Below the pieces are notes generated by a model. The model made no database searches, was not told the DNA's origin, and saw only the letters and a list, made by a program, of their open reading frames with translations. Of a DNA stretch of 64,000 nt, positions 49,970 to 51,849 are shown piece after piece (positions within the stretch are counted from its first letter, which is position 1; every line of letters begins with the position of its first letter). Made by a program: the position numbers and the translations under genes. This stretch comes from Halobaculum magnesiiphilum (GTDB taxonomy: Archaea > Halobacteriota > Halobacteria > Halobacteriales > Haloferacaceae), in assembly GCF_019823105.1 (NCBI RefSeq), contig NZ_CP081958.1:1302001-1366000 (forward strand), written 5' to 3'.

Positions 49970-51849
49970 CCCGCGAGGGCGAGCAGAGCGAGCCCGGCGT
50001 TCACCTCTCGCGCTCCCGCGAGGCGTTCGTCGACCTGGTCGAGTCGACCGACTGCGACGGCCCGTGCGTCGTCCACGCGACCGCCGAGTTGGGCGTCGAC
50101 GTGGAGCCGCTGACCGCCTACGCGGCGCTCGCGGATCGCTCGAACCACTCGTTCCTGCTGGAGAGCGCCGAGAAGGTCGCCTCCAGCGACCCCGACGGCG
50201 CGTTCGCGCCGAGTTCGCGCGGCCGCGCCGGCACCGGAAGCGACGGCGGCGACGCGAGGAGCGACGGCGGCACCGACGGCACCGCCGAGCGCCACGCGCG
50301 CTACTCGTTCGTCGGCTACGACCCCGAGGCGGTGATCGCGGTCGGCCCCGACGGCACCGACCTTCAGCGGCTGGGACCGGCCGCCGACTACGTCGACGTT
50401 CGCGGCCCCGCCGCCGGCGACACCGTCGACCGCGTGCGCGCCGCCCTGCCCGACCTCGACCGCGTGGGCTTCCCGGACAACGACCGCCAGACGCTCGACG
50501 GCGGGCTCGTCGGTTTCCTCGCGTACGACGCGGTGTACGACCTGTGGCTCGGGGAGGTCGGCGTCGACCGCCCCGACCCCGTCGTGCCGGACGCCGAGTT
50601 CGTGCTCACCACCAGAACGCTCGCGTTCGACGACCGCGAGGGGAGCGTCTCGCTCGTGTTCACGCCGATCGTCGGCGACGACGACCCCGGCGCGGTGTAC
50701 GACCGCCTGGCCGACGAGGCGGCCGATGTGGCGTCGACCCTCCGGAACGCCGAGGCGCCCGCGACGGGCGGCGTCCGCGTCGACCGCGAGACGGCCGGCC
50801 CGCGCGAGGAGTACGAGGACGCCGTCCGCGAGACGAAGGAGGCCGTCCTCGACGGCGAGGTGTACCAGGGCGTGATCTCCCGCACGCGGACGCTGGAGGG
50901 CGAGGTGGACGACCTCGGCCTGTACGAGTCGCTTCGGGCGGTGAACCCCTCGCCGTACATGTACCTGCTGCGCCACGGCGACCGCTCGGTGATCGGCGCG
51001 TCCCCGGAGACGCTCGTCTCCGTCGACGGCGACCGCGTCGTCTCCAACCCCATCGCGGGCACGATCCGGCGGGGGACCTCGCCCGTCGAGGACCGGAAGC
51101 TGGCGGGCGAGTTGTTGGCTGACGGCAAGGAGCGCGCCGAGCACACGATGCTCGTGGACCTGGCGCGCAACGACGTTCGCCGCGTGAGCGAGGCGGGGAG
51201 CGTCCGCGTCGAGGAGTTCATGAACGTCCTGAAGTACAGCCACGTCCAGCACATCGAGTCGACCGTGACTGGGACGGTCGCGGCCGACGCGGACGCCTTC
51301 GACGCGACGCGGGCGACGTTCCCCGCGGGCACCCTCACCGGCGCGCCGAAGGTGCGGGCGATGGAGCTGATCGACGAGCTGGAGCTGGAGCCGCGGGGGG
51401 TGTACGGCGGCGGCGTCGGCTACTACTCGTGGACCGGCGACGCCGACTTCGCGATCGTGATCCGGACGGCGACGGTGGAACACGGCGTGCCGCGAAGCGG
51501 CACGGGAAGTCGAGCGACGGAGCCGCGAGACGGCGGGGTCGGCCCCGACCGCCTGACCGTCCGCGCGGGCGCCGGCGTCGTCGCCGACTCGGACCCGGCC
51601 AGCGAGTACGAGGAGACCGAGCAGAAGATGGCCGGCGTGCTCGACGCCGTCGACCGGATCCGGGTCGAGCGCGCGGCGCGAAGTCGTTCGAGAGCCGAAG
51701 GCTCTCGTGATGACGAGACGCAAAGCGTCTCGAACCACGCCGCGGACGGCCGAGCGGCGGAGCCGCGAGACGACGACGGCGACGGGACCGAGGACGAGGG
51801 TGAGCAGCCGACGGAGACCTCGACGGACACCCCGGAGGTGGACCGGTGA
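49966..51849 (+). CDS. trpE: Anthranilate synthase component I, with repeat-derived insertions
   Basis: Makes anthranilate from chorismate, the committed step. The 627-residue product is about 100 longer than usual. Core motifs are intact (NPSPYMYLLRHGDRSVIGASPE, LVDLARNDVRR, PAGTLTGAPKVRAM, VRAGAGVVADSDP). Extra sequence occurs at about 84-105 (Ser/Gly/Asp-rich), 508-525 (VPRSGTGSRATEPRD) and 571-627. The last two contain 19-base triloop palindromes and a 22-base direct repeat encoding RA(T/A)EPRD. GTG start overlaps the trpF stop. Confidence 0.95.
   Translation: MTREGEQSEPGVHLSRSREAFVDLVESTDCDGPCVVHATAELGVDVEPLTAYAALADRSNHSFLLESAEKVASSDPDGAFAPSSRGRAGTGSDGGDARSDGGTDGTAERHARYSFVGYDPEAVIAVGPDGTDLQRLGPAADYVDVRGPAAGDTVDRVRAALPDLDRVGFPDNDRQTLDGGLVGFLAYDAVYDLWLGEVGVDRPDPVVPDAEFVLTTRTLAFDDREGSVSLVFTPIVGDDDPGAVYDRLADEAADVASTLRNAEAPATGGVRVDRETAGPREEYEDAVRETKEAVLDGEVYQGVISRTRTLEGEVDDLGLYESLRAVNPSPYMYLLRHGDRSVIGASPETLVSVDGDRVVSNPIAGTIRRGTSPVEDRKLAGELLADGKERAEHTMLVDLARNDVRRVSEAGSVRVEEFMNVLKYSHVQHIESTVTGTVAADADAFDATRATFPAGTLTGAPKVRAMELIDELELEPRGVYGGGVGYYSWTGDADFAIVIRTATVEHGVPRSGTGSRATEPRDGGVGPDRLTVRAGAGVVADSDPASEYEETEQKMAGVLDAVDRIRVERAARSRSRAEGSRDDETQSVSNHAADGRAAEPRDDDGDGTEDEGEQPTETSTDTPEVDR
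51486..51504. repeat. 19-base triloop palindrome inside trpE (first)
   Basis: CGTGCCGC-GAA-GCGGCACG, eight-base arms. Read as part of GVPRSGTG. Arms are identical to those of the moeA1 palindrome at 10636-10654. Confidence 0.88.
51511..51532 (+). repeat. 22-base direct repeat in trpE, copy A
   Basis: Starts CGAGCGACGGAGCCGCGAGA and matches 51751-51772 at 21 of 22 bases, in the same frame (RATEPRD versus RAAEPRD), 240 bases apart. Confidence 0.85.
51689..51732. repeat. Twin 19-base triloop palindromes in the trpE tail
   Basis: CGAGAGCC-GAA-GGCTCTCG (51689-51707) and CGAGACGC-AAA-GCGTCTCG (51714-51732), each with eight-base arms and a three-base loop, six bases apart. They encode about residues 575-589 in frame. 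Confidence 0.9.
51751..51772 (+). repeat. 22-base direct repeat in trpE, copy B
   Basis: Partner of 51511-51532 with one base difference; follows the twin palindromes just as copy A follows the first palindrome. Confidence 0.85.

Follow-up and report, generated by a model that had tools for sequence, protein, structure and literature searches.

The window analysed here, a stretch of 64,000 nucleotides of the haloarchaeon Halobaculum magnesiiphilum, contains two unrelated enzyme genes, trpE and moeA1, that share a short palindrome. As an earlier note on this DNA had reported, CGTGCCGC-N3-GCGGCACG occurs at 51486-51504 in trpE (plus strand) and at 10636-10654 in moeA1 (minus strand), and both genes read it in the same phase as VPRSGT (GTG CCG CGn AGC GGC ACG). 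The downstream likeness that it described, TCGAGCG...CCGCGAGACG, is also present in both genes and gives TEPRD in trpE and TDPRD in moeA1. Scanned with a covariance model, the window contains two diverged family members besides the moeA1 copy and two trpE copies (one internal, one in a C-terminal extension). Only a limited set of copies, among them those of moeA1 and the trpE internal loop, seeded the model, which favours that subfamily. The E-values given below for the moeA1 copy and the internal trpE copy are not independent, both having been seeds; the same model recovers hundreds of copies that were not seeds. The features are as follows (coordinates within the window):

9688-11016, minus strand: moeA1, host gene, 442 amino acids; Pfam MoeA_N, MoCF_biosynth and MoeA_C, with the insert inside the MoeA_N match
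10600-10656, minus strand: moeA1 insert, 57 nt in frame, 19 codons (RVPRSGTAGSSGEGTDPRD); model match 10597-10655, E=7.7e-15 over the window
10636-10654, minus strand: hairpin 1 of the moeA1 copy, CGTGCCGC-GCA-GCGGCACG; the minimum free energy (MFE) fold is the covariation-supported structure
10600-10630, minus strand: hairpin 2 of the moeA1 copy, GTCGAGCGGGGAGGGAACCGACCCGCGAGAC; two tandem GA/AG mismatches interrupt the stem, and the triloop is GAA
18725-18782, plus strand: diverged family member whose hairpin 1 is longer and has GA mismatches; model E=7.3e-6
49966-51849, plus strand: trpE, host gene, 627 amino acids; the internal insert falls within Pfam Chorismate_bind (280-554)
51485-51534, plus strand: trpE internal-loop copy (VPRSGTGSRATEPRDG), hairpin 2 shortened; model E=1.9e-9 over the window
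51486-51504, plus strand: hairpin 1 of the internal copy, CGTGCCGC-GAA-GCGGCACG
51509-51531, plus strand: short hairpin 2 of the internal copy, GTCGAGCGACGGAGCCGCGAGAC; predicted DNA fold less clear than the others
51689-51707, plus strand: extra hairpin CGAGAGCC-GAA-GGCTCTCG, adjoining the trpE C-terminal copy
51713-51774, plus strand: trpE C-terminal-extension copy, same phase (ETQSVS...RAAEPRD); model 26.8 bits, E=2.8e-4
51714-51732, plus strand: hairpin 1 of the C-terminal copy, CGAGACGC-AAA-GCGTCTCG; its hairpin 2 is CCGAGCGGCGGAGCCGCGAGACG
61125-61170, plus strand: weak diverged family member; model E=1.2e-4

The palindrome by itself is not the repeated unit. The exact 19-mer occurs only twice (in trpE and moeA1) in the 3.73-Mb genome and was rejected as a genome repeat unit. 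The earlier idea of one shared palindrome stands in that both genes carry it; as a description of the unit it falls short, since the stem of hairpin 1 varies, the unit has two hairpins and it is found class-wide. A hairpin of this kind is also unremarkable: the window has 29 stems of at least 7 bp with a 3-nt loop, compared to about 16 in Markov simulations. Because such hairpins are common in this GC-rich DNA, the signal is the shared sequence of the whole two-module segment and not the palindrome alone. As separate observations, the window holds a minisatellite at 13739-13887 (about ten 11-bp units, GACGACAGCCG-like, directly after an ORF ending at 13730), two adjacent 10-bp hairpins at 60899-60948 and a perfect palindrome with a 13-bp stem at 40195-40223 (ACCCGGGCGCGGC-GTC-GCCGCGCCCGGGT).

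What recurs is a two-hairpin DNA element of about 57 nt, which contributes about 19 hydrophilic residues when read within a gene. From 5' to 3' it consists of an 8-bp stem with a 3-nt loop (hairpin 1), a spacer of about 6 nt and a long hairpin 2, TCGAGCGGGGAGNGNANCGACCCGCGAGA. Two tandem GA/AG mismatches interrupt hairpin 2, whose loop is usually an N-GNA-N' triloop; N and N' covary in some copies. Hairpins of the d(GCGNAGC) type and sheared GA pairs are unusually stable. In a covariation test on 24 aligned copies, the 18 pairs were 96.3% standard and showed 30 two-sided changes; none of 500 shuffles equalled the real alignment on any of the measures, and sliding the partners destroyed the pairing. 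Both the moeA1 copy and the consensus have an MFE fold identical to the structure that covariation supports. The stem sequence of hairpin 1 differs between copies through compensatory changes. Copies keep the stem although they encode different hexapeptides (EARSAS, VPRSGT, ESQRDS, ETPRVS), so the conserved object is the nucleic acid and not the peptide. The structure belongs to one strand, since the complementary strand has TC/CT in place of the GA/AG mismatches and TNC in place of the GNA loops. No terminal inverted repeats are seen in the alignment of copies.

The element is widespread in the class Halobacteria. The covariance model matches 239 of 292 Halobacteria genomes (66 of 77 genera); in a phylum-wide sample the 18 genomes matched were all Halobacteria, and none of the sampled genomes outside that class gave a match. 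At E<=5e-4 the model finds about 34 copies in the window's own genome; such copy counts are lower bounds. Used as a search pattern, hairpin 2 of the moeA1 copy revealed the family, whereas the trpE variant gave almost no matches elsewhere. The moeA1 pattern is found in 20 of 148 family genomes, all eleven genus members among them, and its reversed control in 0/148. In a collection of 84,980 species the exact pattern matched 22 stretches, all haloarchaeal (e.g. in Halobacterium, Natrialba, Haloarcula, Natrinema, Halorubrum, Halogeometricum and Halovivax). Two further observations concern variants. Seven identical copies of a hairpin-2 variant lie at exact 60-nt spacing in genome G008 (C1:1867586-1867974), a tandem array of the element or a relative. 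A second subfamily in the window's genome is mostly intergenic and often lies 3' of a co-directional gene, with a longer hairpin 1 carrying tandem GA mismatches and CGAACGGGGAGCGGAGCGACCCGTGAG as hairpin 2 (loci L153, L163, L165, L166, L168-L172, L175, L176 and L179).

Copies of the intact gene-type subfamily are nearly all intragenic, with almost none in intergenic DNA. Their hosts are core enzymes such as MutS, PurK, CarB, PurL, LysRS, ValRS, LeuRS, GlyRS, TrpB, MenB, ArgC and CofH, and also include aconitase, a Cu-ATPase, GcvPB and riboflavin synthase. Inserts are also found at the linkers of fused proteins, namely AhbA-AhbB (siroheme decarboxylase) and PurN-PurH (L288, L248), which suggests that linkers are favoured sites. 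Two insert copies can be found in a single protein, as in LeuRS (L287), L120 (a 17-copy gene family) and TrpE (P0001).

Close relatives carry both filled and empty alleles of the host genes. TrpE and MoeA were compared across 60 genomes, comprising that of the window and those of relatives. The moeA1 insert is present in four of the eleven genus genomes (G000, G007, G008 and G010) and missing from seven (G001-G006 and G009). An empty moeA1 reads, for example, KIEQVTEVGDEVEVF, compared to KIEEAE-RVPRSGTAGSSGEGTDPRD-EIGEEVEVF when filled, a gain of exactly 19 codons. The internal trpE insert is present in the same four genomes, and similar but distinct inserts occupy the same TrpE loop in a fifth genus member and in a member of another family. 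The C-terminal copy of trpE is also found in G007 and is missing from the other TrpEs of the genus. In the nearest aligned solved structures (PDB 1UZ5 for MoeA, 5CWA for TrpE) a gap falls exactly at the insert site. Both peptides are therefore extra to their families, as had been proposed, being missing from relatives and PDB homologues; the segment is not conserved in TrpE and MoeA across haloarchaea, and empty orthologues exist within the genus itself. Judged from sequence, the two insert sites appear to be turns between strands; an AlphaFold2 run on single-sequence MoeA gave a pLDDT of 34 and was not used.

Two other genes give the same picture. In glyS, G000 reads GTG GGC (57 nt) GGC GAC TGG, while G007 and seven others read GTG GGC GGC GAC TGG or similar. 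In purK, G000 has 57 nt, inserts are found in three of eleven genus members only, and every outgroup is empty. The G000 inserts in moeA1, purK and glyS are each exactly 57 nt (19 codons) over empty alleles of the same genus. No clear target-site duplication was found, the glyS and moeA1 junctions being clean 57-nt gains without extra duplicated bases. The sister genomes G000 and G007 differ at glyS and purK, whereas the more distant G002 and G010 have the glyS insert, and G001 and G010 the purK insert, like G000 (loci L181-L211). This distribution is likely to reflect allele exchange between species, and it is from distribution that we infer the mobility of the element.

Reading phase provides a further regularity. 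Frame calls come from a codon-usage score of the flanking sequence and use neither annotation nor expression. Of the copies flanked on both sides by coding DNA, all 88 are in sense orientation and in a single phase (+, phase 2); they fall in 40 gene families, and orthologous copies within a family are not independent. The first set gave 54 of 54 such copies in sense, with codons starting at model position 3; a further 60 copies, taken from the class-wide list regardless of context, added 34, all in the same phase. Among copies that are open through from the upstream frame, 97 are in phase 2 and one is in another phase. Stop codons do not explain this, since all six frames of the element are nearly always stop-free (31 copies). 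What sets frame (+,2) apart is its product: it is the only net acidic frame (mean +2.0 acidic residues), the other five being basic (-1.1 to -5.5) and some of them hydrophobic. It is also the most hydrophilic frame, and its acidic peptide (EARSASERSSGERSDPRD) is of the kind tolerated in a halophile surface loop. The single phase is most simply explained if an acidic salt-in proteome purges insertions in the wrong frame.

Taken together, we consider it probable that the segments in trpE and moeA1 represent copies of a dispersed palindromic element with two hairpins, which inserts into genes and has spread through the class Halobacteria. This reading is supported by the covarying structure, the high copy number per genome, the patchy distribution in close relatives, the exact 57-nt gains, and the one orientation and phase. 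The element would be copied to new sites by an activity that recognizes the folded strand. In five of the six combinations of orientation and phase, an insertion would add a basic or hydrophobic peptide and be purged; the sixth would add an acidic, flexible, Ser-rich loop that acidic halophile proteins could tolerate at turns, linkers and termini. Recombination would then reshuffle filled and empty alleles, and inserts would erode in codon steps. The insert peptide is probably translated and near-neutral. We identified no mobilizing or transposition enzyme. In particular, no copies adjoin the 10 PF01797 (Y1 transposase) loci in the genus, where the best element match has E=0.011 and 18 bits. 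The scarcity of intact gene-type copies in intergenic DNA counts against insertion and purging as the full account, as random insertion followed by purging alone does not predict it.

The alternative that survives best is an element acting at the RNA level or coupled to transcription. Its hairpins would act or insert on the sense strand (through exposed non-template DNA or an RNA intermediate), or be kept as mRNA stability or 3'-end structures, with phase as a secondary filter. A structure confined to one strand fits this reading, as do folding z-scores of about -3.5 to -4.0 for RNA compared to about -2.2 for DNA. Orientation fits too: when copies of every kind are pooled (166 unique ones), 115 have a co-directional upstream gene and one has an opposed upstream gene. 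About fifteen copies begin no more than 10 bases from the stop codon of a co-directional gene, and most copies other than the 88 with coding DNA on both sides lie inside, or just 3' of, co-directional genes. On the other hand, coding selection alone fixes the orientation of copies within genes, and several of the 3' copies may be C-terminal extensions. The orientation bias exceeds what coding selection alone obviously predicts. Overall, we regard this alternative as possible but unlikely. Slightly more doubtful, and offered as speculation, is the idea that propagation is transcription-coupled and strand-specific, in that a hyperstable one-strand DNA or RNA double hairpin (GNA triloops, tandem GA) would be copied almost only into transcribed sense strands, with the acidic frame hiding the element in proteins.

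Patchy presence could also arise if the segments were ancestral loops, inherited vertically and lost by most relatives. Loss could explain why G007 is without the glyS insert that is present in G000, G002 and G010, and the shortened glyS copies (54 nt in G002 and 51 nt in G010, respectively) look like decay. The purK inserts speak against it, present in three genus members with all outgroups empty; moreover, common protein ancestry cannot account for one sequence shared by 40 unrelated gene families. We therefore find this explanation improbable. More improbable still is a spliced or bypassed insert, that is, a short intron (e.g. of the bulge-helix-bulge type) or a hairpin bypassed by the ribosome, in either case missing from the protein. 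Strong hairpins within conserved genes, and the symmetric internal loops of hairpin 2, would suit such a process. Yet a removed segment would need no phase, open frame or acidic reading, whereas the copies keep one phase (88/88), are stop-free, leave the frame uninterrupted and use the acidic frame; the internal loops are 2x2 GA mismatches and not 3-nt bulges around 4 bp. Chance or convergence, with GC-rich acidic loops drifting to similar strings, can be practically dismissed: GC-rich palindromes are frequent in the window, but full-length model matches with covarying stems in hundreds of copies, shared hairpin spacing and the empty controls (0/148 genomes for the reversed pattern; 0/500 shuffles) contradict it.

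The inserted two-hairpin element resembles several known repeat systems without belonging to them. Searched against Rfam at gathering score, nine element loci matched no family, and only a neighbouring tRNA was found. The open-access literature returned papers on RPE, REP and MITE only, with no haloarchaeal in-frame element and no insert peptide strings; an earlier report in a subscription journal is possible. Like haloarchaeal MITEs, the element is a small, non-autonomous, dispersed repeat; unlike them, it shows neither terminal inverted repeats nor an obvious target duplication. REP elements are short hairpin units with many copies per genome, some of which abut stop codons and some of which lie inside ORFs (PMC3733652). 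The haloarchaeal element shares short hairpins, high copy number and some positions at stop codons or in ORFs with REP/BIME. Unlike REP/BIME with RAYT, it has no copies beside Y1 transposase genes, and its gene-type subfamily is intragenic and not mainly extragenic. Identity with REP/BIME was rejected on these two grounds, transposase association and extragenic location. The REP-type GTAG/CGTC tag is not in the element consensus, and a few copies begin directly after a TAG stop codon.

In-frame palindromes were previously known mainly from Rickettsia and Wolbachia, with a report in one methanogen. According to a citing description (PMC2229807), Suyama et al. reported in 2005 coding palindromes in Methanocaldococcus, archaeal repeats fused into protein genes. 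They are an archaeal precedent from a different archaeal lineage. The haloarchaeal family is present in most sampled genomes of a class, many of them culturable, and its hosts include proteins with well-known structures, which makes insertion, tolerance and loss directly testable. It would account for odd Ser/Arg/Asp loops (SSGERSDPRD and relatives) in the proteins of haloarchaea, would show how an acidic proteome, through coding selection, can sieve mobile DNA to one reading phase, and would bear on how proteins gain new loops.

The closest comparison is with RPE, palindromic repeats found in frame in unrelated conserved protein genes and missing from orthologues (PMC2229807, PMC10969869), which are about 105-150 bp long and have terminal inverted repeats (PMC2229807). 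The haloarchaeal element differs from them in being 57 nt long and GC-rich, with two separate hairpins, no terminal inverted repeats, a strict single phase and a class-wide archaeal distribution. No homology to RPE and no occurrence in Rickettsiales were found, the exact hairpin-2 pattern matching haloarchaea only among the 84,980 species; membership in RPE was rejected, given that sequence, structure, size and host differ. The earlier proposal of an in-frame-tolerated palindromic insertion comparable to RPE is nonetheless supported by filled and empty orthologues within one genus and by exact 57-nt gains. Like RPE and the Wolbachia protein-coding palindromes, the haloarchaeal repeat lies in frame in unrelated conserved genes and is missing from orthologues, and by analogy it may be said to work like RPE, a comparison that is well supported.
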